DNA from: Gemmatimonadota bacterium
GTDB taxonomy: Bacteria > Gemmatimonadota > Gemmatimonadetes > Longimicrobiales > Gaopeijiaceae
Direction of reading: 5' to 3'
Assembly: GCA_029262115.1 (NCBI GenBank)
Contig: JAJCZZ010000005.1
Coordinates: 1 to 64,000, forward strand
Length of the DNA stretch: 64,000 nt
In this document: positions 1,508 through 49,701 of the stretch, piece after piece
How the letters are laid out: the number at the start of each line of letters is the position of its first letter
How positions within the stretch are numbered: position 1 is the first letter of the stretch
Program-made: the position numbers and the translations under genes
Notes under the pieces: generated by a model
What the model was told of the DNA's origin: nothing
The model's database searches: none
The model's input: the letters and a program-made list of their open reading frames with translations, nothing else

Positions 1508-1872
1508 GTCGCACTGCCTGAACCTGGATTCCTTCCCCAACGTGGTTCGTGGCCGCCAGCACATCAGCCTACAAATAGGTCCACTGCCGAGAAGTGGAGC
1601 ACCTCGCCCGCGTCCACCGCTGGCGGACCACCCGATCAGGACACCGCCTCGGCCATCCAAGTCGACGACATCCACCTCGTCGGACCCATCCTCCGTCCTC
1701 ACGCGCTGGAGGACCGAGTCGGTGAAGCACCGGCCTACGATCCGGGTCAGGTGGCGAGCTGCTCCCGTTCTGTCCTCTTGGCGGCTTGGTAATAGAGGCC
1801 GTTGACTGCGCCCGCGTGTCTCGGTCGATCATCGGGTCGGGCTTGTGCATGTCGCCTCCGGTCACCAACTAG

Positions 1873-1894
1873 TCACTAACACTGGTATTAGTAA
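1873..1894. promoter_or_regulatory. Operator-like inverted repeat
   Basis: Arms TCACTAA and TTAGTAA (one mismatch) flank an 8-base spacer in a locally AT-rich patch. It lies about 25 bases upstream of a minus-strand ATG (1850) with a GGAGG site. The shape suits a TetR/MarR/PadR-type dimer, but no regulator gene is next to it. Confidence 0.4.
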
Positions 1895-1959
1895 CACGAA
1901 CAGGAGTAACCTCTGGAGAACTATGTGCACAGCAGTGGGGTGGCCTACCCCCTCCCCCC

Positions 1960-3063
1960 TCACATCTCCAGCGGCAACGCCACCAGGTCCTCCAGGAACG
2001 CCAGCGCCCACCGCTCCTCGTTCAGCCTGCCCGGCCGTCGCAACTGTTCCGCGCGCTCGTCGTGGCCGTCGAACTGGTCGAAGAGCGTTCCCTTCATGTA
2101 CATCGGCTCGAGGTGCGGGGGCAGGTAGCTCACCCGCACGACTGCCCTGGTGTTCTTCAGCTTGTCGGCAGCCAGGTCCACGGCCGCCAGCCAATGGCTC
2201 AGCCGCTTCTTCTTCGAGTCGACGCGGCCGACGCTGCGGAGGTGACTCACCACGCGGACGGTGGCCTTCCAGGTCCTGAAGTCCTTTGCGGTGAACGGGC
2301 CCCCTGTCACCTCACGGAGATACTCGTTCACGTCCGACGATTCGACACGCCGCTTCCTTCCGGACCCATCGATGTACTGGAGGAGGTGCCAACCGGGCAT
2401 CTCCATGGCCTTCTGGAGAACCTCGATCAGAGCCTTGTCGCGCACCGTGAGTTCGATGGCCTTTCCACCCTTCCCGTCGAACGAGAGGAAGAAGACACCG
2501 TCGACGTTGCGAACATGTCGGGTACGAAGGGTCGTCAGGCCGTAGCTGTTGTTGCTCTGGGCGTACTGGTCGTTCCCCACGCGGATCGCGGTGCGGTCCA
2601 GGAGCCGGACCGCGGCGGCGAGCGCCTTCTCCCGCGTAAGCCCGTCGGTCTTGAGGTCTCGACCCACCCGCTTGCGTAAGGTGGGGAGGTCGTGCCCGAA
2701 CGCGACCAGCTTCTGGAACTTCATCCGGTCACGGGCCACCCTCCATCGGGGATGATACAGGTACTGCTTGCGGCCCCTGTCGTCCCGGCCCGTGGCCTGC
2801 AAGTGGCCGCTCTCGAACGGGCAGATCCACACGTCCTTCCAGGCCGGCGGGATGACGAGCGCTTCCAGCCGGCGCCGGACCGAGCGGTCCCGTACCGTAG
2901 CGTCGTTCTCGTCACGGTAGGAAAAGCCCTTTCCGGCCCGGACCCTCGTATAGCCGGGCCCCTCGTCACTCACATACTCCAGACCCGCGACCCTGGCCGT
3001 CCGACGCGGGTCGAGGCCCGCCTTCGCGGGAGACGCGGCCGCATCGGACGGTTCAGTAGCCAA
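1960..3063 (-). CDS. DNA topoisomerase IB (poxvirus type)
   Basis: A 367-residue type IB topoisomerase, which relaxes supercoils by a transient 3'-phosphotyrosine nick. The N-terminal domain includes YLYHPRWRVARDRMKFQKL (about 101-119). The catalytic domain shows TAIRVGN (Arg161), SYGLTTL, GKGGK (Lys201) and KDFRTW (Arg263), and the nucleophile Tyr313 sits in RVSYLPPHL. Position 304, His in the vaccinia enzyme, is Asn, as in some bacterial members such as the Deinococcus enzyme. The gene starts 25 bases after the DUF2188 gene on the same strand, so the two are probably co-transcribed. Length and motifs are complete. Confidence 0.95.
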   Translation of the reverse strand: MATEPSDAAASPAKAGLDPRRTARVAGLEYVSDEGPGYTRVRAGKGFSYRDENDATVRDRSVRRRLEALVIPPAWKDVWICPFESGHLQATGRDDRGRKQYLYHPRWRVARDRMKFQKLVAFGHDLPTLRKRVGRDLKTDGLTREKALAAAVRLLDRTAIRVGNDQYAQSNNSYGLTTLRTRHVRNVDGVFFLSFDGKGGKAIELTVRDKALIEVLQKAMEMPGWHLLQYIDGSGRKRRVESSDVNEYLREVTGGPFTAKDFRTWKATVRVVSHLRSVGRVDSKKKRLSHWLAAVDLAADKLKNTRAVVRVSYLPPHLEPMYMKGTLFDQFDGHDERAEQLRRPGRLNEERWALAFLEDLVALPLEM

Positions 3064-3088
3064 GGTCGTCAGGGTTCAAGCAGTTGCC

Positions 3089-3454
3089 TCAGTCATCCAG
3101 CCCGTAGGCGTGTTGCCGCTGGATCGTCCCGTCCGCCCTGTGGATGACGAGTCGGCTCGGTGCCTTGCCGGCGGCCACGGTGCGACCTGCCTGCAGACTC
3201 TCCTTCTTCGTGCCGTGGCGGCTGGTCGCCCGGGAGGCGCCTTCGGCTTCGAGGACCCACTCCTCTCCGTCCGGCTTGACATGGTAGACGGTCGTTTGGG
3301 CGGACGAGGCCTTGTCGGACGAGCTCTTCGCGCCCTTCTCGGACGCCTTCGTAGCAGCCTTCCGCTCGTCCATGTGCCGCTTGGCAGCCACGGCGATTCC
3401 GGTAGCGGCGGCGACACCTGCAGTGGTGGCGATGATGGTCTTCTTGCCGGCCAT
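3089..3454 (-). CDS. DUF2188 domain protein
   Basis: A 121-residue protein. The N-terminus (1-26) contains an alanine-rich hydrophobic stretch (TIIATTAGVAAATGIAVAA) that may be a membrane anchor. A charged linker follows, then a DUF2188 domain (about 54-120): VYHVKPDGEEWVLEAEGASRA and LVIHRADGTIQRQHAYG. DUF2188 is a small beta-rich domain of unknown function. The ATG has an AAGGAG site five bases upstream and a promoter-like sequence behind it (3481-3509). It leads a likely two-gene unit with topoisomerase IB. Confidence 0.85.
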   Translation of the reverse strand: MAGKKTIIATTAGVAAATGIAVAAKRHMDERKAATKASEKGAKSSSDKASSAQTTVYHVKPDGEEWVLEAEGASRATSRHGTKKESLQAGRTVAAGKAPSRLVIHRADGTIQRQHAYGLDD

Positions 3455-3480
3455 GCGTGCTCCTTGGAACGGGTGAAGCT

Positions 3481-3509
3481 TTTAAATACCCTGACTTGAG
3501 CGCTTGCAA
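3481..3509 (-). promoter_or_regulatory. Candidate sigma70-type promoter for DUF2188-topoisomerase IB
   Basis: On the minus strand TTGCAA (3509-3504) is followed by exactly 17 bases and TTTAAA (3486-3481), about 27 bases before the DUF2188 start codon. The AT-rich patch stands out from its GC-rich surroundings. The rest of the 3455-3763 gap holds no gene. Confidence 0.4.
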
Positions 3510-3763
3510 CAGGTGTGCCATGCGCAAGTGAGCGTAGCTGATAGACTACGTTTTTAGGTGAGGGCACGGGAGAATCGCTGCGGCCCAGACCGTCCCGTCG
3601 GCCGGGCCGGAGCGGCCCCGTTCGCGGAACGGGTCTTGCCCGGGAGCGCAGGATCACACCGGCGATGGCCGGCCTGCACGTCCACCCGCTTGGGGCGGCT
3701 CGGGCGGGAAGGCCCACCCTTCCTTGCCGGCTCCGCCCCACCGCAAGAACTGGAGAGGCCTCG

Positions 3764-5389
3764 ATGGCCAACTCGTTGGTCAAACCCGATAGCTGGGTGA
3801 CCGTCGCCACGATCGGAAAGATGCTGGTCAAGCACTCGAAGGCGGGCCTGTTCGACGGGATCGGTGCCGAAGTCCCCTCGGGTTCCGGCAAGCCCGACGA
3901 ACTCGCGGACGAACTGGAAGCCATGGGTCCGACGTGGGTCAAGATGGGGCAACTCCTGTCGACCCGTCCCGATTTGATCCCCGCGGCCTACATCGACGCG
4001 CTCACACGCCTCCAGGACCGTGTCGAGCCGTTTTCGGGGGAGGAGGCCCGCGCGATCATCGAGGAATCGCTCGGGGCGCCGGCCAACAAGATCTTCTCGG
4101 AATTCGAGGACGAGGCGTACGGCTCGGGTTCTCTGGCGGATGTCCACCGCGCGGCCCTGCGGGATGGCACGCCCGTGGCGGTGAAGGTGCAGCGACCCGG
4201 GGCGCGGGAGGCCGTCGAACGTGACATGGCCATTCTCGCCGACCTCGCCAAAGTGGTCGAGGAGCGGACCGAGGCGGGGCGTCGGGTAGGTGCCATCGGG
4301 ATGTGCGAGGAGATGGACCGATCCCTCATGGAGGAACTCGACTTCGGCAGGGAGGCCGACAACCTGCGGATGTTCGGCGACGGCGTACGCGAATTCAAGA
4401 ACCTTGTCGTGCCCCGCCCCTACATGGATCTGTCCGCTGACCGGGTCATCACCATGGAAATGGTTAGCGGCGTGGGGGTTGCCGATCTGAGCCCGATGGC
4501 GCGCATGGAGCTCGACTCGACCGTCCTGCTGGAGGAGCTCTTCACCGCGTACCTGGAGATGGCGTTGGTGCATGGACTCGTCCATGCAGACCCCCACCCC
4601 GGCAACGTCCTGATCACGCCCGAAGGGAAGCTCGCGCTGATCGACGCGGGCATGGTCCTACGGATCCCTGAGCACCAGCGCGACCCGATCCTCGAGCTCC
4701 TGGTCGCACTTACAGAGGGCCACGGGAAACGCGCGGCGGAAATCGTGGAAGGCCTTTCGCAGCGGTCTGAGATCTTCGAGCCGGAAGAATTCGAGGAGGC
4801 CGTCGCGCGCCTCGTGGCCGACTACCACTCCTCTGGCTATGGGAACCGACCGATCGGTCAGTTGGTGCTGGAGACCGCAAGAATTGCGATGGACTCCGGC
4901 CTGCGGGTCCCTCGCGAAGCACCGCTCCTCGGTAAGACGCTGCTCAACCTGGACGAGACCGCCCGTCAGCTCGATCCGAGCTTCCGGCCGGACGACACCG
5001 TCCGCGAGACGGCCAGCGATCTCGTTCAGCGCCGCACTCTCGAGTCGCTCGCGCCCCACCAGACGCTCCGGGCGGTGCTCGAGACCAAGGAGTTCGTCAC
5101 CGAGCTACCAGGACGCCTGAACCGTGTCCTGGACCATCTCGGAAAGGAGCGCTTCGAGCTCGACGTACACCTTCCCCAAGAGTCGCCCCTCATGAAGGCG
5201 GCTCAGAAGATGGCCAACCGGATCACGGCCGGACTCGTGATCGCCTCGCTGATCATCGGTGCGGCCATGCTCATGTCCGTGCCGAGCAACTTCCAGATCT
5301 TCGGCTACCCGGGACTGGCCATCCTCTTCTTCTTCATTGCGGCCGCCATGGGTGCCGCCCTTCTCCACAGGATCTGGAAGGACGTCTGA
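3764..5389 (+). CDS. ABC1/UbiB-family atypical protein kinase
   Basis: A 541-residue ABC1 (UbiB/COQ8) family member, linked in other organisms to quinone biosynthesis and membrane lipid homeostasis. Hallmarks are the KxGQ motif (Lys60 in VKMGQLLSTRPDLIP), an Ala/Ser-rich nucleotide loop (GSGSLADVHRA, about 120-130), VAVKVQRPG (Lys141), the catalytic loop HADPHPGN (274-281) and the metal-site DAG (Asp294). Two hydrophobic C-terminal segments (about 485-535) suggest membrane anchoring. I chose the ATG at 3764 because GGAGAGG lies just upstream and the family N-terminus aligns there. An in-frame start at 3665 would add 33 arginine/proline-rich residues. No ubi or menaquinone gene is adjacent. 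Confidence 0.92.
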   Translation: MANSLVKPDSWVTVATIGKMLVKHSKAGLFDGIGAEVPSGSGKPDELADELEAMGPTWVKMGQLLSTRPDLIPAAYIDALTRLQDRVEPFSGEEARAIIEESLGAPANKIFSEFEDEAYGSGSLADVHRAALRDGTPVAVKVQRPGAREAVERDMAILADLAKVVEERTEAGRRVGAIGMCEEMDRSLMEELDFGREADNLRMFGDGVREFKNLVVPRPYMDLSADRVITMEMVSGVGVADLSPMARMELDSTVLLEELFTAYLEMALVHGLVHADPHPGNVLITPEGKLALIDAGMVLRIPEHQRDPILELLVALTEGHGKRAAEIVEGLSQRSEIFEPEEFEEAVARLVADYHSSGYGNRPIGQLVLETARIAMDSGLRVPREAPLLGKTLLNLDETARQLDPSFRPDDTVRETASDLVQRRTLESLAPHQTLRAVLETKEFVTELPGRLNRVLDHLGKERFELDVHLPQESPLMKAAQKMANRITAGLVIASLIIGAAMLMSVPSNFQIFGYPGLAILFFFIAAAMGAALLHRIWKDV

Positions 5390-40342: not shown

Positions 40343-42997
40343 TCAGTCCCCTCGTAGTGAGATGACGGGGTCGACCGATGCGGCTCGCCGGGCCGGTAGG
40401 GCCGAGGCCGCCGCCGCGAGCGCTCCCAGTCCGACCGCTACGGAGAGGTAGACCCACGGGGACGTCGCGCTCACTCCGAACAGCATGCCCTCCAGGATTC
40501 CGGAGGCGGCGACGGCCCCACCGACACCGAGTGCGACGCCAAGCAGGGCCATCCCCGCGCCCTGTCGGACGATCTGACGGACCACGTCCCCCCTCGTCGC
40601 ACCCAGCGCCATCCGGACGCCGACCTCGTGGGACCGCTGAGCCACCAGATACGAGAGCACTCCGTGGACGCCAAGGACGGCCAAGAAGACCGCGAGGGAC
40701 GCGAAGAACGTCAGCACCGACGTGATGAAACGCTCGCGACCGACGGCCTCCCTGATGGTCTCGGTCATCGTGGCCGCACCGTAGACAGGGATCTCGGGGT
40801 CGACGCCCACGATCGCCTCGCGAAGCGCGGATACCAGCGTCAGCGGCGGGACCTCGGTCCTCAGGATCAGGGACAGTTCCCCACCCCTCTGTGGGTTCTG
40901 CAACAGCGAGACGTACATCGCCGGAGGTGGATCCGCAGCCAAACCGTGGATCCGTTCGTTGTCCACCACTCCGACGACCGTACGGTAGGTGGGGCCCCAG
41001 AAGGCGATCCGTCGACCGAGCGCACCGCCACCCGGGAAGTACCGCTCGACCGCCTCCCGGTTGAGCACGACCACCAGCTCCGATTCCGTGTCGTCGGACG
41101 GGCTCAGGAACCGTCCCTCCACGACCCTCAGTCCAGCGGCGTCCACATACTCCGGCGTGACCATCCGGGTGGATATCTCGCCCTGTGCGGGGTCGTACTC
41201 CCGCCCTTCCACCCGGAACGAGTTGGTGAAGCCGCGCTCCAGCGGGTGACTGAATCCGATGGCCGCACTCCGCACCCCCGGTAGGCCCTCCGCCGCCTCG
41301 ACAATACGCCGGTTGAGCGCGATGACCTCCGGCCAGTGCGGGTAGGTGTCGAAGCTGCGTGGATAGCGAGCCTGCGGCACCGTGAAGTGGGCACGGAGCA
41401 CGTTCTCGGCTTCGAAGCCCAGGTCGACCGACTGGAGGTTCCGGACCGAACTGATGAGCAACGACGCCGTGATCAGCAAAACGACGGCAGCGGCGAGTTG
41501 GGTAGCCACCAGAAACCGGCGCACCGGCAATCGAGTGGAACCCACCGAGCCGCGCCCGTCGCGTAGCTCCAGCTGGAGGTCCCCCCGGCGATTCTGAACG
41601 GCCGGGAGGACGGAGAACCCAAGTCCCACCATCAGGGCCAGGGTCAGCGCGAATCCGAGGACGGACCCGTTGAGGGCCGGGTCACCGAGCCGGGCGATCT
41701 CAGGAGGCACGAAGGTCGTGAGCACGCCCAACCCAAGACGGGCCACGAGAAGTCCCCCCAAGCCCGAAACCAAGGCAACGATCAGACCTTCCGCGAGGAA
41801 TCGCCTCAGCAGTTGCGACCCTGTCGCACCGACGGCGCGTAGCACCGCGATCTCCCGTCGGCGCGCCGAGCCACGCGCGAGGAGCAGGTTGGCGACATTC
41901 ACGCACGCGACCAGAAGGACCGCAAGTACCGAGCTGAACAGAATCCACAAGGGGGCCCGAACGTCGCCCCGCCCGACCTCCGCCAACGGTTCCACGAACG
42001 CCCCGCGATTCACGTTACCGGGGCGCTCCACCTCGAGGTCCGCCATGATGCTCGCCATCTCGGCCTGGGCGTCCTCGACACGTCGACCGGGCGCCATCCG
42101 TCCCAGGACCATCGCCCAATGGCTGTTGTAGTTCTGATTGGCCGGGTCGATGCGCACGGGAAGCCACACGTCGATGTCGGGTTCGGGGAACCGGAGGTCC
42201 GGTTCGAGGACCCCGACGACTTCGAACGGACTCCCGTCGACCGTGACGATCCGACCGACGACATCGGCGTCAGCCCCGAACTCGTTCCTCCAGAATCCGT
42301 CGGTCAAGACGACCACGTTCGCGCCCCCCGGCCGGTCTTCCTCGGCCAGAATGCCTCGCCCACGCTGGACCCCGACCCCGAGAACGTCATCGATATTTTC
42401 GCTCACGTAGGCCATCGAAAGGAGGTGAGCCGGCCCATCGGGGCGGCTGAAAACGCCCGTGCCCACATAGTAGGCGCCCAGTTCCGTGAACGACCGTGAT
42501 CGCTCGCGGTAGGCGTCGAAGTCGGCGGGCGACGCGGGTTCCCGGACCGTGCCCGTGGCCCGGTCGTTCTGCCACACGACGGCCAATTCGTCCGCGTCGC
42601 GGAAGGGCAAAGGCCGCAACAAGACGCTTTCCACCACGCTGAAGACGGCGGTGCTCGCACCGATTCCCAGCGCCAGCGTCAGCACGACCACCGCAGTGAA
42701 GCCAGGCGCGCGCCGCAGCGCGCGACCGGCGAGCCGAAGGTCCTGCACCCATCTCTCCATCATCATCCTCCCCCTGTTCGCGGCCATCCGTTGCCCGTCG
42801 TATTCGAGACACGCTTGCTCCACGTCGTCCACGTTTCCGAAGCGTGCAAGGACGTGCTTACGCGCCTCGTATTCGCCCCACCCCTGCGTCACCAGTTCCC
42901 GGATCCGTTCTTCGATGTGGAACGAGATCTCGTCACTCACGTCCGGCCGGAGCATCCGCCTCGGAAACAGGCCTCTCCACACCCCCCGCCAGTCCAT
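40343..42997 (-). CDS. ADOP-type ABC transporter permease
   Basis: 884 residues with two MacB-periplasmic/FtsX units, the Acidobacterial Duplicated Orphan Permease layout. Residues 1-75 are the permease prefix domain (DVSDEISFHIEERIRELV, EARKHVLARFGNVDDVE). The first unit starts RALRRAPGFTAVVVLTLALGIGASTAVFS, and FtsX segments include LWILFSSVLAVLLVACVNVANLL and a repeated LGVHGVLSYLVAQRSHEVGVRMALGA near the C-terminus. No ATPase is adjacent to this copy, as is usual for these orphans. It follows the PadR gene by seven bases, so PadR very likely controls it. Confidence 0.93.
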   Translation of the reverse strand: MDWRGVWRGLFPRRMLRPDVSDEISFHIEERIRELVTQGWGEYEARKHVLARFGNVDDVEQACLEYDGQRMAANRGRMMMERWVQDLRLAGRALRRAPGFTAVVVLTLALGIGASTAVFSVVESVLLRPLPFRDADELAVVWQNDRATGTVREPASPADFDAYRERSRSFTELGAYYVGTGVFSRPDGPAHLLSMAYVSENIDDVLGVGVQRGRGILAEEDRPGGANVVVLTDGFWRNEFGADADVVGRIVTVDGSPFEVVGVLEPDLRFPEPDIDVWLPVRIDPANQNYNSHWAMVLGRMAPGRRVEDAQAEMASIMADLEVERPGNVNRGAFVEPLAEVGRGDVRAPLWILFSSVLAVLLVACVNVANLLLARGSARRREIAVLRAVGATGSQLLRRFLAEGLIVALVSGLGGLLVARLGLGVLTTFVPPEIARLGDPALNGSVLGFALTLALMVGLGFSVLPAVQNRRGDLQLELRDGRGSVGSTRLPVRRFLVATQLAAAVVLLITASLLISSVRNLQSVDLGFEAENVLRAHFTVPQARYPRSFDTYPHWPEVIALNRRIVEAAEGLPGVRSAAIGFSHPLERGFTNSFRVEGREYDPAQGEISTRMVTPEYVDAAGLRVVEGRFLSPSDDTESELVVVLNREAVERYFPGGGALGRRIAFWGPTYRTVVGVVDNERIHGLAADPPPAMYVSLLQNPQRGGELSLILRTEVPPLTLVSALREAIVGVDPEIPVYGAATMTETIREAVGRERFITSVLTFFASLAVFLAVLGVHGVLSYLVAQRSHEVGVRMALGATRGDVVRQIVRQGAGMALLGVALGVGGAVAASGILEGMLFGVSATSPWVYLSVAVGLGALAAAASALPARRAASVDPVISLRGD

Positions 42998-43004
42998 GAC
43001 GACG

Positions 43005-43349
43005 TCAGTCCGTCGCCGGGGCGGCGATCTGGAGCACCCGCGCGACGGCCTGAGCGTGTCGGGCCCACCGCTGCGTGTCCCTGTTCAACTGACGTTTCCC
43101 CTTCCGCGTGAGCCGGTAGAACTTGGCTCGACGGTTCTCGTCTGTCCGGCCCCACTCGCCGTCGATGAGGCCGTCCCGCTCGAGCCGGTGAAGTGCCGGA
43201 TACAGGGCGCCTTCCTCGATTCGAAGGAGCCCGTCCCCCCGCCGCTCGATGAATCGGCTGACGGCCACGCCGTGCAGCGGCCCGTCGTTCAGCGACTGGA
43301 GAACCAGGAGATTCAGTGTGCCATATAGCGTATTCGCGTCGACTGCCAT
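43005..43349 (-). CDS. PadR-family transcriptional regulator
   Basis: A 114-residue winged-helix repressor: LYGTLNLLVLQSLNDGPLHG (8-27), SRFIERRGDGLLRIEEGALYPALHRLERDGLID (recognition helix and wing, about 30-62) and a C-terminal dimer helix. PadR proteins bind palindromes with ATGT/ACAT arms and usually repress a neighbouring transporter. It is the first gene of a pair with the ADOP permease. An AACATAA-gccgt-TTATGTT palindrome lies about 70 bases upstream and is a likely autoregulatory site. Confidence 0.93.
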   Translation of the reverse strand: MAVDANTLYGTLNLLVLQSLNDGPLHGVAVSRFIERRGDGLLRIEEGALYPALHRLERDGLIDGEWGRTDENRRAKFYRLTRKGKRQLNRDTQRWARHAQAVARVLQIAAPATD

Positions 43350-43418
43350 CCGGCTCTCCGAAAACGGTTCACATCCGCCCCGCGGGGTCCCCTACGGCGC
43401 ACGTTCCGTGATGTCCGT

Positions 43419-43437
43419 AACATAAGCCGTTTATGTT
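43419..43437. promoter_or_regulatory. Candidate PadR operator
   Basis: Perfect 7-base arms AACATAA and TTATGTT flank GCCGT. A second, overlapping palindrome (ATGT-ccgta-ACAT, 43411-43423) shares one half. The site is in the gap between padR and the permease/peptidase gene, so it could serve either direction. The remainder of 43350-43689 holds no gene. Confidence 0.5.
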
Positions 43438-43609
43438 TGATGCGCTAGATTGATAGAGAACATGTGGTTACGGGCTGTACGCCGACCTTAGCAGTCTAGG
43501 TAGCGAAGCTCTCCGCCAAGGCACCGGCGCGGGGAGGGGAGTGGGGCGCCTGGTGTGCCGCTCGACCCACCAGGGAGGAGGCGGGATTTGCATATCCTCA
43601 TTCCCAAAG

Positions 43610-43628
43610 TACTTTCTCTTGTAAAGTA
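43610..43628. promoter_or_regulatory. Second operator-like inverted repeat (TACTTT/AAAGTA)
   Basis: Perfect arms TACTTT and AAAGTA flank a 7-base spacer, and the left arm is also part of the 10-base palindrome AAAGTACTTT (43606-43615). It lies 60 bases before the GTG of the permease/peptidase gene. It differs in sequence from the 43419 site, so a different regulator or a -35/-10 region may be involved. Confidence 0.45.
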
Positions 43629-43689
43629 TCGTGGCGCGCGGCGCACAGAAGCGCGTCCGACGGGGCCAACTCAACCGAGGAAGGCACCA

Positions 43690-46600
43690 GTGACAGAACC
43701 GGGGTGGCGGTCACAACCGATGAAGTGGCTAGAGATGGTTCGCTTCGAGCTCGCGCATCAGCTTCGCCGCAAATCCACATGGCTGCTCTTCGGACTGTTT
43801 CTCTTTCCCTTGGTGGGGGTGACGAACGAGCGTCTCATCACCGCTCGGAACGGCGAGATCTTGTACAACGCGCCCCTGCTCATTGCCGAGTCGGGCATCT
43901 TCATGGGCGTCGTCGCCCTCCTGATCGTCGCGCTGATGGCGGGGGACGCTGCAACGCGCGACGTGCAGACGCGGATGGAGCCCATGATGCACGCCGCACC
44001 CGTGGGGCGAGCGGCCTATCTCGGGGGGCGCTTCGCGGGGGTGTTGATCCTGGCAGCCCTGCTCTCGTCCGCCGTGCCTCTCACGCACGTTCTGGTTCCG
44101 CTCCTCCAGCCGGAAGCTGCGGAGGGCGTGGTCGGGCCCCTCCAGACGATGGCATATCTGCAGTCCTACTTGATGCTCATGCTGCCGAACGCCTTCATCG
44201 GAACGGCGCTGCTTTTCTGTTTCGCGGCAATCGTCAGACACCCGATGGCGAGTTGGGTCGGGGTCGCAGTCTTGTTCCTCGCCACGCAACTGACTGGGGT
44301 CTACGTCGGCGGGATCCTGGGGCGATGGGAGCTGGCGGCGCTGATCGACCCACTGGGCTGGATTCCCGTCGATCTCATGGGGCGGACATGGGCGCCCCCG
44401 GAATTCAACCAGCGCCTCATCGGATGGGACGCCGGCCTCTTGGCGAATCGGGTGCTGTGGATTACGATGGCCTGCGTCCTCCTCTTTCTGACGCTCAGAC
44501 GGTTCGATTTCGGAGGGGGCGCGCCCGCCATCCGTTGGTGGCAGCGCAATCGCCTCCGTCCAGCGGGTTTGGGTGGAGCCACCGCCCTCCCGGTTGATGG
44601 CCCGGCAGACGTGCACCGCACGCCGGGCATCGTCCCCGTCGCACGTCGCGTCCACGGGCCTCTCGGTCGTCTGAGTCAGACCCTGTCTGTCGTGCGAGAT
44701 TCGGTCCGGGAGATCGCACCCCGCTGGACCTGGCTCGGCGCGCCCTTCCTCGTGTTGATGCAGGCCGTGATCACGCTGGAAGGGCTGGCACGCGCGGGGG
44801 GCGGTGCGCCAGTCCTTCCCACGACGGGGCTCGTGGTCCAGACCCTCGGGCCCGTGGCCGGCAATGCTCCGCCCCCGGTAGTCCTGGTGGCCATCCTGCT
44901 CCCCATCGTTCTCGCCGGAGAACTGGTCTGGCGGGAGCGCGACAATCGTACGGCCGGACTGGTCCATAGTGCCCCGGTGCCGGACGGGGTGCTGTGGTTC
45001 GGGAAGCTCTTGGGGTTGTGGCTGGTGATAGCCGGGCTGCACCTGCTCCTCGCGATGGGAGGCATGCTCGCCCAGGTCTGGCTCGGCTGGTACGACCTCG
45101 ATCCGATGCTGTACGCGCGCCTGCTCGCGCTCCGGTTGGTGACCCCCTTGTTGTTCTCGCTATTCGCGCTGTCGATCCACGTGATCGTCAACCACAAGGT
45201 CGTTGGTCACGCGCTGGTCCTGGCTCTGGCCCTCGGGCCCCTCATTCTGGCCGAGTCGTTCGGCATCGAGCATCCAATGCTCGTCTTGGGCTCCACACCC
45301 GACTGGCACTACTCGGACATCAGCGGCTTCGAGCCGTTTCTGGGAGCCGTGCTGTGGTTCGATCTGTACTGGACTGCGTGGGCACTCCTACTCGCGTCCG
45401 TGGCGTGGCTCTTCTGGGTGAGGGGCGAGGAGCGAGGGACGGGTGGACGCCTCCGGCTCGTCCGGGCCCGATGCGAGGGCGCGCGGGCTGCGGCGGTGGG
45501 CGTGTCGGCCACACTCGTCCTCCTCATCGGTGGCGTCGTCTTCTACAACACCAACGGGCTCAATGAGTACCGGTCGGGCGACGAGCAGGCCGACGCGTTT
45601 GCCGAGTACGAACGCCGTTACGGGCAGTTCGACGACGTACCTCAGCCGGTTCTGGTCGCGACAGAGTTGGCGGTCGAGGTCTACGCGGGGCGGGGCGAGG
45701 GGGAGATCAGAGGTGTCCATCATCTGGTGAATGACTCCAATCTGCCCATCGACACGCTCCATGTGGCGACCTCACTACAGGTGGAGACCCGCGCGGTCGA
45801 ACTGGACAGGTCCGCGACGGCCGCGGTCGTGGACGGCACGCTGGGCCACCACATCTACGTGCTCGCCGAACCTCTCCTACCGGGTGATTCGCTCAAACTG
45901 ACGTGGGAGGTACACCACGCGCGCCACGGTTTTCCGACCCGATCGATCACTACCTCCATCGTCGGAAACGGGAGCTTCTTCGTCGTTGCGGATTGGATAC
46001 CGCTCATCGGCTATCAACCGGGCCGGGAGTTGCTCGGTCGGGCCCAGCGGTCTGAGCGGGACTTGCCGGAGCGACGGGTTATTCCGCCGCTAATGGACCC
46101 TGACGCGCCATACGATCGTCACGCGATGGACTACCTCGACCTGGCGGTGACCGTGGGTACCACCGCAGGGCAGATCGCCGTCGCCCCCGGGGAACTGGTC
46201 CAGAGCTGGACCGAGGAGGGCCGAAGCTACTTCCGATACGAGACGACAGCACCGATCGGACCCGGCTACGCCATCTTCTCCGCAGACTACGAGGTGAGCC
46301 GTGAGCGATGGGGGAGCGTGGATATCGAAGTGCTCCACGATCCGGCGCACACGGCCAACGTGCCGACGATGATCCGCAGCATGAAGGCGTCGCTCAAGCA
46401 ACTTACGGAGCGATTCGGACCGTTCCCGTACGAGGTGATCCGGATGGTAGAGTACCCGGCGGAGGGGGGCTCCCTACACTCGGCGTCCGCGACCATTTGG
46501 TACAGGGAGCTGTTCTCGCTGTTCGACCCCGAGCGGGACCCGCGTCGGATCGACATGCCGTTCGCCGTCGTCGCCCACGAAGTCGCACACCAGTTTCAGC

Positions 46601-47352
46601 CCGTGCCAGCCCGGATGGAGGGACGGGTCCTGCTCTCCGAGAGCTTCGCATGGTACGCCGCGATGGGCGTCATCGAAGAGGAGTTCGGCCCCGAGCACCT
46701 GGGACGCTTTCTCGACTTCATGAGAACATCTTATCTCCGGCCGAGGTCACGGGCCGACGTTGCGCTCCTACGTGCGAACGACGCGTTCCTGGGCTATCGG
46801 AAGGGTCCGTTCGCCATGTACGCACTACGCGAGTACGTAGGGGAGGAGCGCGTGGACCTCGCATGGCGGCGGCTCCGTGAACGGCACGCGTCGCACGAGC
46901 CTCCCTTCGCGACGTCGCTCGACCTCTATCGGGAGTTGCAGGAAGTGACACCGGACTCCTTGCGACCGCTGCTGGGCGATCTCCTCGAGCGAAACACTTT
47001 CTGGGAGTTGTCCGCCGAAGAGGCGACGGTCGCGGCCACCGAGGACGGCCAGTGGCGAGTCACCTTGGAGATCCGGGCGCGCAAGATCGTGGTGGACACC
47101 CTTGGCACCGAAACCGGCATGCCCATGGACGACCCCGTGGAAGTCGGTGTCTTCGCAGCGGGCGCCGCCGGAGTCGAGGGCCCGACCCTTTACCTCCGTG
47201 TGCATCGCCTCCAAACCGGTCCGCAAACTGTCACGATCACGGTTCCCCGCCGACCAGCACGAGCCGGCATCGACCCGCGCCATCTGCTCATCGACGTGCG
47301 ACCCGGCGACAACGTGGTGGACATCCTCGACTCATCCTCTGCAAGCAAATGA
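43690..47352 (+). CDS. ABC-2-type permease fused to an M1-family metallopeptidase
   Basis: 1220 residues from GTG 43690 (AAGG six bases upstream); ATG 43720 is an alternative. The first ~630 residues are membrane, in two sets of hydrophobic segments: one begins LRRKSTWLLFGLFLFPLVGV, and the second follows LVWRERDNRTAGLVHSAPVPDGVLWFGKLLGLWLV. The C-terminal ~600 form a gluzincin peptidase: HEVAH (963-967) is followed about 17 residues later by Glu in LLSESFAWY, and a GAMEN-like segment is replaced by VEYPAEGGSLHS. A substrate-docking domain (about 690-840) precedes it. It is known as a fused permease/M1 family. Its stop overlaps the ATPase start (ATGA). Substrate unknown. Confidence 0.88.
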   Translation: MTEPGWRSQPMKWLEMVRFELAHQLRRKSTWLLFGLFLFPLVGVTNERLITARNGEILYNAPLLIAESGIFMGVVALLIVALMAGDAATRDVQTRMEPMMHAAPVGRAAYLGGRFAGVLILAALLSSAVPLTHVLVPLLQPEAAEGVVGPLQTMAYLQSYLMLMLPNAFIGTALLFCFAAIVRHPMASWVGVAVLFLATQLTGVYVGGILGRWELAALIDPLGWIPVDLMGRTWAPPEFNQRLIGWDAGLLANRVLWITMACVLLFLTLRRFDFGGGAPAIRWWQRNRLRPAGLGGATALPVDGPADVHRTPGIVPVARRVHGPLGRLSQTLSVVRDSVREIAPRWTWLGAPFLVLMQAVITLEGLARAGGGAPVLPTTGLVVQTLGPVAGNAPPPVVLVAILLPIVLAGELVWRERDNRTAGLVHSAPVPDGVLWFGKLLGLWLVIAGLHLLLAMGGMLAQVWLGWYDLDPMLYARLLALRLVTPLLFSLFALSIHVIVNHKVVGHALVLALALGPLILAESFGIEHPMLVLGSTPDWHYSDISGFEPFLGAVLWFDLYWTAWALLLASVAWLFWVRGEERGTGGRLRLVRARCEGARAAAVGVSATLVLLIGGVVFYNTNGLNEYRSGDEQADAFAEYERRYGQFDDVPQPVLVATELAVEVYAGRGEGEIRGVHHLVNDSNLPIDTLHVATSLQVETRAVELDRSATAAVVDGTLGHHIYVLAEPLLPGDSLKLTWEVHHARHGFPTRSITTSIVGNGSFFVVADWIPLIGYQPGRELLGRAQRSERDLPERRVIPPLMDPDAPYDRHAMDYLDLAVTVGTTAGQIAVAPGELVQSWTEEGRSYFRYETTAPIGPGYAIFSADYEVSRERWGSVDIEVLHDPAHTANVPTMIRSMKASLKQLTERFGPFPYEVIRMVEYPAEGGSLHSASATIWYRELFSLFDPERDPRRIDMPFAVVAHEVAHQFQPVPARMEGRVLLSESFAWYAAMGVIEEEFGPEHLGRFLDFMRTSYLRPRSRADVALLRANDAFLGYRKGPFAMYALREYVGEERVDLAWRRLRERHASHEPPFATSLDLYRELQEVTPDSLRPLLGDLLERNTFWELSAEEATVAATEDGQWRVTLEIRARKIVVDTLGTETGMPMDDPVEVGVFAAGAAGVEGPTLYLRVHRLQTGPQTVTITVPRRPARAGIDPRHLLIDVRPGDNVVDILDSSSASK

Positions 47353-48263
47353 GAATGGAGCTACAGATCCGCGGCGTCTCGAAAACCTACTCCAACGGTG
47401 TTCGCGCCCTTGACGACGTATCGCTCACGATCGCTCCCGGCATGTACGGTCTTCTCGGACCCAACGGCGCCGGCAAGTCGACTCTGATGCGCATCCTGGC
47501 CACGCTGCAGGATCCCGATGAGGGGACGGTTCGTCTGGGAGACATCGATGTGCTGTCTGAAAAGGAGCGGACCCGCGAGGTGCTGGGCTACCTGCCGCAG
47601 GATTTCGGGCTGTATCCCGGGGTCACTGCTGAGTCGTTGCTGACCCACTTCGCGGTGCTCGAAGGCATTTCCCATCGCACCGATCGGAAGGAGACGGTCG
47701 AGGCCTTGCTCCGCCGCACCAACCTCTGGGACGTGCGCAGCGAGAAGCTCGGGACGTACTCCGGCGGCATGAAGCAGCGCTTCGGTGTCGCGGTCGCGCT
47801 ACTCGGCGACCCGAGGTTGCTCATCGTGGACGAGCCCACTGCCGGCCTCGATCCCGTCGAACGGGTCCGCTTCCTCAACCTGCTGAGCGAGCTCGGGGAA
47901 CGCAGCGTCGTGCTCCTGTCCACCCACATCGTGGAGGACGTGTCTGAGCTCTGCAGTCACATGGCGGTTATTGATAGGGGCCGCATCCTCTTGGAGGAGG
48001 AGCCGTTTCGAGCGATCGAACAGATCCGGGGGCGGATCTGGCGACGAGTGGTCACGACGGGCGAGTTGGGCCGGCTGGAGCGCGAGCACAAGGTCATCTC
48101 CACCCGGCTGCTGGCTGGCCGCAAGATCGCGCACGTGTTCGCGGACGCCCGACCCGGTCCCGCGTTCGAGCCGGTCCAGCCCGACCTGAAGGACGTCTAC
48201 TTCAGCGTGATGGCGGACGAGAACGGGCGTTCGGTAGATCTGCCCGCCGAATCCCAGCCGTAA
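47349..48263 (+). CDS. ABC transporter ATP-binding protein
   Basis: 304 residues: Walker A GPNGAGKS (37-44), Q-loop LGYLPQDFGLYPG, signature YSGGM (137-141), Walker B LLIVDE (157-162) and switch His in LLSTHIVEDV. It is of the CcmA/drug-exporter type with an extra C-terminal segment of about 80 residues. The start at 47349 overlaps the stop of the permease/peptidase gene by four bases, so the two make one transporter. It is the only ATPase near that permease, and the ADOP permease has none. Confidence 0.94.
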   Translation: MRMELQIRGVSKTYSNGVRALDDVSLTIAPGMYGLLGPNGAGKSTLMRILATLQDPDEGTVRLGDIDVLSEKERTREVLGYLPQDFGLYPGVTAESLLTHFAVLEGISHRTDRKETVEALLRRTNLWDVRSEKLGTYSGGMKQRFGVAVALLGDPRLLIVDEPTAGLDPVERVRFLNLLSELGERSVVLLSTHIVEDVSELCSHMAVIDRGRILLEEEPFRAIEQIRGRIWRRVVTTGELGRLEREHKVISTRLLAGRKIAHVFADARPGPAFEPVQPDLKDVYFSVMADENGRSVDLPAESQP

Positions 48264-48402: not shown

Positions 48403-49701
48403 CTACGCGATCAGGTCCCCCAGAGCCCGAGCCGCATCGACCTCAGCGGCGTGGATGGCGCGGACCGCTGCGGCCAGTTGGTGGCGGAGTCCCTCACTCT
48501 GCTCCTCGTCCAGGGGGAGCGAGTCCGCCGCCTCCCGTCCGAGCTCGGAGTACCGCTCCCACAGCTGTCTCAACTGCTCCGTCCCGTTTGCGCCCTCAGA
48601 CAGGTAGACCTCGGCCTTCTGGTCGAGGAGCGCGCGTGCCTCCCGAAACAGGGGCTCGCCGTCGGGAAGAGCCGCTCGGGCCAGTTCGGTCCACTGCCTG
48701 CCCAGCTCCGCGTAGCGCTCAGACACTTCCTGGGCGCCGTCCAGAATCCCTGCCCGAGACACTTCCGCCAGGAAGTCGGCGAAGAGCGAGCGGCACAGCC
48801 CGCCTCCGGTACCGTAGTGCTCGATGCAGTCGTACGTCCAGGTCAACGCCGTCCAGAGGTGCCGGCCGGACGGGAAGATCGACGCCCACGCGTGCTTCCC
48901 GCTCGACGCCTCCAACCGGTCCGCCCACGTCGCGAAACCGTCCACCGTGTGGTTCGCCCGCCCGTTCCGAAGCCCATCCGCACAGGCCGCGATACCCGAG
49001 CGCACGGCTCGGTCCAGTTCGAACCCCTCCCCGGAGGGCGCCACGCCAAGAAGGCGATTCTTGAACTTCCGGATGCGACCCCGCGCCGCTTCGAACTCAG
49101 CGCGCGGGACCCGGATCGGATCGTCGGCCAGGTCCACGATCAGCGCGCTGTCCTCGTCCGCCTCGTGGACGGCGACGACGTGATACCCGCTGCCCACTCG
49201 ATTGGCGGGAAGGGCGCGATGCGGGAGAGACGCCATGTCGACCCACGCGATGACCGGACCTGGCTCCAGGGCTCTGTCCAGGTTCTTGCGGGCGGCCTTG
49301 GCTCCGGCCGTCTCGGAAACGACGGCCTTCAGGCCGAGTCGCTCGACCGCCGCACGCAAGTACGCTTCGTCGTCCTCCCAGAGGTGGCGGCCCGCGAGGA
49401 AAAAGCTCGACTGATCGTCGGCCTCGTATCGAAAGGAATAGACGCCCACCCCGATCCCACCTGCGATACCCATCAACAGGGCCTCGGACGTCCCAACCGA
49501 CTCGGGCAGTGCGGCCGAGGAGTGCACCAGGAGGGTTCGGAGGGCCGCTACGGCCGGGATCTGCCCGGCCACCGTCTCCGGGGCCGCGTCATGAGAGCCG
49601 AGAGCCTGCGCCAGGACGTGGCGGCGGGCGGTGGTGTAGTGCTCGCCCGTGCGGGCCATGCGGGCCCGGACGCGATCCTTCAACTTCTTCTGCTTCGTCA
49701 T
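48403..49701 (-). CDS. BtrH-N / DUF4872 domain protein
   Basis: A 432-residue soluble protein. Residues 1-30 are basic (MTKQKKLKDRVRARMARTGE). Residues of about 55-210 resemble BtrH_N (SEALLMGIAGGIGVGVYSF, FFLAGRHLW, VIAWVDMASLPHRAL, GYHVVAVHEAD), a papain-like fold found in the butirosin acyltransferase BtrH. The remainder matches DUF4872 (FPSGRHLWTALTWTYDCIEHYGTGGGLCRSLFADFL). In BtrH the domain moves an acyl group from a carrier protein to an aminoglycoside. No carrier or antibiotic genes are here, so the acceptor is unknown. The 49702-49952 gap upstream has no gene. Confidence 0.8.
   Translation of the reverse strand: MTKQKKLKDRVRARMARTGEHYTTARRHVLAQALGSHDAAPETVAGQIPAVAALRTLLVHSSAALPESVGTSEALLMGIAGGIGVGVYSFRYEADDQSSFFLAGRHLWEDDEAYLRAAVERLGLKAVVSETAGAKAARKNLDRALEPGPVIAWVDMASLPHRALPANRVGSGYHVVAVHEADEDSALIVDLADDPIRVPRAEFEAARGRIRKFKNRLLGVAPSGEGFELDRAVRSGIAACADGLRNGRANHTVDGFATWADRLEASSGKHAWASIFPSGRHLWTALTWTYDCIEHYGTGGGLCRSLFADFLAEVSRAGILDGAQEVSERYAELGRQWTELARAALPDGEPLFREARALLDQKAEVYLSEGANGTEQLRQLWERYSELGREAADSLPLDEEQSEGLRHQLAAAVRAIHAAEVDAARALGDLIA

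Follow-up and report, generated by a model that had tools for sequence, protein, structure and literature searches.

Two back-to-back units with distinct likely operators between a PadR/ADOP pair and a permease-M1 peptidase transporter in a Gemmatimonadota bacterium

Do two permease-encoding units that diverge from one short intergenic gap also share a regulator and a function? We addressed this question for a 64,000-nucleotide stretch of contig JAJCZZ010000005.1 from a Gemmatimonadota bacterium (hereafter, the window), in which four genes at 40343-48263 diverge from a 340-bp gap. To the left lies the gene for an 884-residue ADOP family duplicated permease (40343..42997, minus strand; NCBIfam TIGR03434, 809.8 bits against a cut-off of 622.3) and, upstream of it and co-directional, the gene for a PadR family regulator of the acidobacterial type (43005..43349, minus strand; TIGR03433, 131.5 bits against 101.8; PF03551). 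Both models score above cut-off and the genes are adjacent, placing the pair among PadR-ADOP units. To the right lie a gene encoding a permease-M1 peptidase fusion (43690-47352, plus strand) and one encoding its ABC ATPase partner (47349..48263, plus strand; PF00005, 108 bits). The fusion begins with a GTG at 43690, preceded by GAGGAAGG, and its stop codon overlaps the ATPase start in an ATGA at 47349-47352, which makes translational coupling of the ATPase to the fusion probable. A protein with BtrH_N and DUF4872 domains, with weak likeness to the acyltransferase DarH, is encoded convergently with the ATPase gene (48403-49701, minus strand).

The gap contains two inverted repeats with perfect arms: repeat 1 (AACATAAGCCGTTTATGTT, 43419-43437; 7-nt arms around a 5-nt centre) and repeat 2 (TACTTTCTCTTGTAAAGTA, 43610-43628; 6-nt arms around a 7-nt centre). 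A third palindrome, AAAGTACTTT at 43606-43615, overlaps the 19-mer core of repeat 2, and the two together make up AAAGTACTTTCTCTTGTAAAGTA at 43606..43628. Our analysis recovered every gene and palindrome that the initial annotation, made from the DNA letters alone, had described here. That annotation had also let its reading hinge on conservation of the palindromes in close relatives, and we found both repeats conserved.

An ABC-2 permease fused to an M1-fold domain

The permease part of the fusion (43690..45594, plus strand) matches PF12730 (30.2 against 27 bits), and a predicted model of the N-terminal 660 residues (pLDDT 73) shows 13 long helices, arranged as two six-helix ABC-2 modules plus a 13th helix. 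With a Pfam match above cut-off and six-helix modules, it groups with ABC-2 exporter permeases; its fold matches, NosY and a mycobacterial efflux pump, were weak. The M1 part (45595..47352, plus strand), supported by family alignment and structure prediction, falls below the Pfam cut-off by sequence (17.2 against 27.7 bits), and searching the PDB by sequence with the fusion gave no match, only the fold comparison doing so. An AlphaFold2 prediction for the C-terminal 585 residues (pLDDT 81.9, pTM 0.85) matches M1 aminopeptidases in Foldseek (ERAP1/IRAP at E about 2e-25, and also PepN), and the predicted model contains the beta saddle, thermolysin-like domain and beta sandwich of the M1 fold.

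The zinc site is that of a gluzincin. HEVAH at 46576-46590 supplies ligands H963 and H967 and the general base E964, the downstream glutamate E984 (46639-46641) is the third ligand, and the catalytic-type Tyr1036 (46795-46797) stands before a KG pair. All five residues are invariant in 11 members of the clade described below, and the zinc-site residues are also kept in the wider family alignment, except in L069, which is masked there. The GAMEN motif, which binds the N-terminal amine, is absent from the alignment, where the corresponding region reads VEYPAEGGSLHSASATIWYRE; we therefore file the domain as an M1-fold peptidase domain, not a proven aminopeptidase. Given the odd helix count, a cytoplasmic N-terminus and basic loops at residues 266-356 and 569-603, we predict that the M1 domain sits on the outside of the cytoplasmic membrane. 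Fusion and ATPase would form an ABC-2 type transporter with an M1 zinc peptidase domain mounted on the inner membrane's outer face; the domain's probable role there is to cleave peptides that are exported or received by the transporter.

The initial annotation had thus been right to see a transporter carrying its own peptidase, and the family is a known and widespread one, not new. In a first survey we found homologues of the fusion in 32 of 98 relatives, and three in this genome, and a scan of named genomes returned 517 relatives across Gemmatimonadota, Bacteroidota, Acidobacteriota and a few MAGs with other labels. We take 'ABC transporter permease/M1 family aminopeptidase' to be the name that such fusions carry in public annotation. 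Our literature search found no experimental study specific to the fusion, and none giving a substrate or trigger for M1-peptidase ABC transporters. The window's fusion is 34-57% identical to those in named genomes. The ATPase gene comes first in 73 of 79 named loci; the reversed order, fusion then ATPase, was seen only in the window, L200 (57%) and L201 (56%), the last two being its nearest relatives.

Two repeats and their candidate regulators

The nearest PadR orthologues (in genomes G294, G323 and G284; 68-72% identical) each have an ADOP gene behind them, and no fusion lies in front of any of the three within 1.5-kb flanks. We scored 19-mers position by position in the 200 bp upstream of these genes and, with significance from Markov shuffling, detected repeat-1 matches of 14/19 at -53 in G294 (p = 0.0005), 15/19 at -31 in G323 (p = 0 of 2000) and 14/19 at -38 in G284 (p = 0.001); upstream of two more distant PadRs, no match was seen. 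The suggestion that one of the repeats suits PadR is supported for 43419-43437. We infer PadR binding from this conservation: repeat 1 is likely a PadR operator, through which PadR would repress its own PadR-ADOP operon.

We also considered AACATAAN5TTATGTT as a class-wide PadR motif and rejected it for its rarity, with only 4 of 295 genomes carrying it. Of the 11 loci with a related core, CATAAGCNGCTTATG, 9 have AbiEii-like genes next to it, and only in G294 does it lie beside a PadR orthologue. Near the AbiEii-like nucleotidyltransferase genes (loci L282, L283 and L285-L291, in G108, G238 and other genomes of the class), it is probably a toxin-antitoxin operator. The core of repeat 1 resembles these palindromes, and is therefore not exclusive to PadR.

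Of 295 genomes in the class, 74 contain an exact copy of the repeat-2 pattern TACTTTN7AAAGTA; a reversed control pattern hits about 12, as counted from the match table. Its inner bases share a G/A-C/T symmetry that gives the consensus TACTTTGYNNNRCAAAGTA, often followed by CTT; the window site at 43606-43628 is an instance of TACTTTGYNNNRCAAAGTA(CTT) with two mismatches to the strict consensus. In many loci the motif stands just ahead of an operon with genes for a membrane protein of ~200 residues, an HTH_34 regulator (PF13601, 94 bits) and UppS, which is its commonest downstream context. Further sites precede ATPase-fusion operons and small membrane proteins of one family ('RRIRGAxGMGLTWA'). 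These small proteins, which have no Pfam match, stand behind the operator in L102, L103, L106, L116, L117, L090, L091, L098 and L099. At least 10 of the listed motif sites are flanked by CTTGAC, similar to how a -35 box begins; on our reading of the sequences, this flank fits what a repressor would show, and we infer repression over activation.

We built a weight matrix from 16 HTH_34-operon sites from outside the window's order and scanned the 250 bp upstream of fusion operons. Twelve fusion operons, the window's among them, scored at p about 0.008 or better and were used as labels; the window operator scored 29.0 (p about 0.001) and the weakest labelled operon, L046, 7.7, while L071, at 11.5, was left out of the tree. 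A maximum-likelihood tree placed all 12 labelled fusions in a single 15-member clade (support 100/99) whose deepest branch is the window, and none of 500 label shuffles was as clustered as observed. Of the three unlabelled members, L036 ends at a contig edge and L033 and L045 have no site. The named genomes gave 31 sites at a score of at least 15, against 0.8 per shuffle, and 14 of the 31 lie upstream of ATPase or fusion starts. Because the matrix was trained on sites from a search seeded by the window motif, this test is partly circular; the class-wide count against the control and the gene linkage are free of that circularity.

HTH_34 is single-copy in this genome and in most relatives that have it. 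Its gene here (G000:C79:18110-18493; PF13601, 87.5 against 27 bits) lies elsewhere than in the window, and its operon carries only a degenerate site, CGCTTTGCAGCACAAAGAA, with three mismatches. Other sites found by pattern search in this genome adjoin a fusion paralogue on contig C16, a small membrane protein (C51) and an M14 carboxypeptidase (C50), and two tandem HTH_34-type sites (G000:C45:64508-64544, L134) lie between divergent genes for a PF00144 serine hydrolase and a metallo-beta-lactamase-fold protein.

In Bacteroidota and Acidobacteriota, and in Candidatus Kutchimonas, the regulator and the transporter are found side by side. Pontibacter, Larkinella and Cesiribacter (Bacteroidota; L233, L251, L261, L270) have the HTH_34 gene no more than about 3 kb from the transporter, and the same layout is seen in L248, a MAG labelled Williamsia sp.; these loci have one operator before the HTH_34 unit and, in most, a second between that unit and the transporter. 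A membrane protein-HTH_34 pair stands upstream of the ATPase-fusion operon in Candidatus Kutchimonas (L207) and Luteitalea (L255), and the operator precedes the HTH_34 unit in all seven loci. As judged from these sequences, the operator travels with HTH_34 and the peptidase-transporter fusion across Gemmatimonadota, Bacteroidota and Acidobacteriota, and repeat 2 is likely an HTH_34 operator. The initial annotation had noted that the second repeat lies close to the fusion start; its position stands, as a conserved operator, but its regulator points to HTH_34 (PF13601), not PadR.

One regulator or two

The initial annotation had taken the shared control region as a sign of linked function, with PadR controlling both units and the ADOP permease and peptidase transporter working in one peptide-handling pathway. 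Both operators do lie within one 340-bp gap, and PadR-ADOP pairs of a different type recur, directly divergent from the fusion in L201, which is among the two closest relatives, and in its vicinity in L269. However, a survey of 121 fusion operons turned up a divergent PadR within 1 kb upstream at only three of them, in the window, L201 and L269; the types in L201 and L269 are not orthologous to the window pair, and none of the three PadR/ADOP orthologues has a fusion within its 1.5-kb flanks. Repeat 1 is kept by PadR orthologues with no fusion nearby, whereas repeat 2 is conserved before fusion operons with no adjoining PadR and is tied to HTH_34. ADOP-like sequence is also frequent, with 187 first-look candidates in this 5.45-Mb genome (G000), so that an occasional chance neighbour is expected; two of the three reversed-order operons have a divergent PadR-ADOP pair, for which chance may not account entirely. 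Since the sites differ and are conserved separately, we rejected a single PadR regulon over both units and regard shared control by PadR as unlikely; the PadR/ADOP pair beside the fusion looks like local placement, not a functional link. For reference, the pair in L201 (PadR 4495-4896, ADOP 1856-4498) diverges from the fusion and occupies the side that the pair has in the window, and first-look PadR-like candidates in G000 number 119.

A second possibility is that another winged-helix regulator, such as an unlinked PadR or MarR, binds repeat 2, and that the linkage to HTH_34 reflects genome neighbourhood only. The HTH_34 fold is common to PadR, MarR and HxlR, which give weak cross-matches, and HTH_34 binding to repeat 2 is itself a prediction. 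Against this, several families and three phyla have the site ahead of the HTH_34 operon itself, and the gene found repeatedly next to both operator and transporter is HTH_34; we judge a different binder to be improbable.

Short palindromes occur in any intergenic gap, and by shuffling a 64-kb window is expected to hold 0.10 matches to AAAGTACTTT with up to one mismatch, 0.06 to TACTTTN7AAAGTA with up to two and 0.04 to AACATAAN5TTATGTT with up to three, each of which was found once with no mismatch. The palindromes were chosen post hoc, so conservation in relatives is stronger evidence than these expectations. That the repeats are chance palindromes with no regulatory function is scarcely credible, as AAAGTACTTT occurs once in the 5.45-Mb genome and both repeats are kept at the expected place in relatives, which rejects this reading.

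We consider it very probable that the locus consists of two independently regulated, back-to-back units, with PadR/ADOP controlled through repeat 1 and the fusion-ATPase operon by HTH_34 at repeat 2, and with an extracytoplasmic M1 domain on an ABC-2 transporter. In this genome HTH_34 would act on the window from its locus elsewhere, and would also control its own operon (membrane protein, HTH_34 and UppS) together with a few genes for envelope functions and secreted hydrolases. Counting against independent regulation of this kind are the degenerate site at the genome's own HTH_34 operon, the two clade members with no site, and the failure of our search to find a sigma-70 promoter in the gap. 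That search found no terminator there either.

A broader proposal is more tentative, and we hold it as possible, somewhat short of an even chance: that HTH_34, with a co-encoded polytopic membrane protein as possible sensor, uses a single 19-bp operator to repress M1-peptidase ABC transporters as well as small membrane proteins, UppS and secreted hydrolases, forming an undescribed envelope regulon across Gemmatimonadota, Bacteroidota and Acidobacteriota that answers peptide or cell-wall stress. The predicted regulon content (M14 carboxypeptidase, beta-lactamase-fold hydrolases, small membrane proteins and UppS) points to the envelope. Our literature search found no published regulon or operator for the HTH_34 group, and an HTH_34 operator linking the fusion to other envelope genes seems previously undescribed. 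An operator shared with a single-copy regulator offers a handle on M1-peptidase ABC transporters, which are common in soil bacteria. Cultured Bacteroidota (Pontibacter, Larkinella and Dyadobacter) carry the site, and in several of them the regulator adjoins the transporter, making the prediction testable in the laboratory.

Each part of the locus has known counterparts. The PadR-ADOP pair has the same order as the PadR-ADOP units of Acidobacteria (TIGR03433/TIGR03434), with PadR upstream and both models passing. The canonical PadR operator is ATGT-N8-10-ACAT (PMC3506622), whereas repeat 1 has the opposite polarity, ACAT-N9-ATGT, so the type of site differs; an ATGT-N5-ACAT overlaps repeat 1. 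Among HTH_34 (PF13601) winged-helix regulators, the nearest solved relative of this genome's protein is PH1061 (1ub9). Like the ABC-2 permease/M1 fusions of Bacteroidota, Gemmatimonadota and Acidobacteriota with a separate DrrA/GldA-like ATPase, the window's fusion has the same domain order, a length of ~1,200 residues, an ATPase partner and the HEXXH...E plus Tyr site, and it differs from them in its fusion-ATPase gene order, shared with L200 and L201. With the M1 aminopeptidases ERAP1, IRAP and PepN it shares the predicted fold (TM-score 0.6-0.66 over the query), the zinc ligands and the catalytic tyrosine; unlike them, it lacks GAMEN, has a shorter HEXXH-to-Glu spacing (16 residues) and is fused to a transporter.
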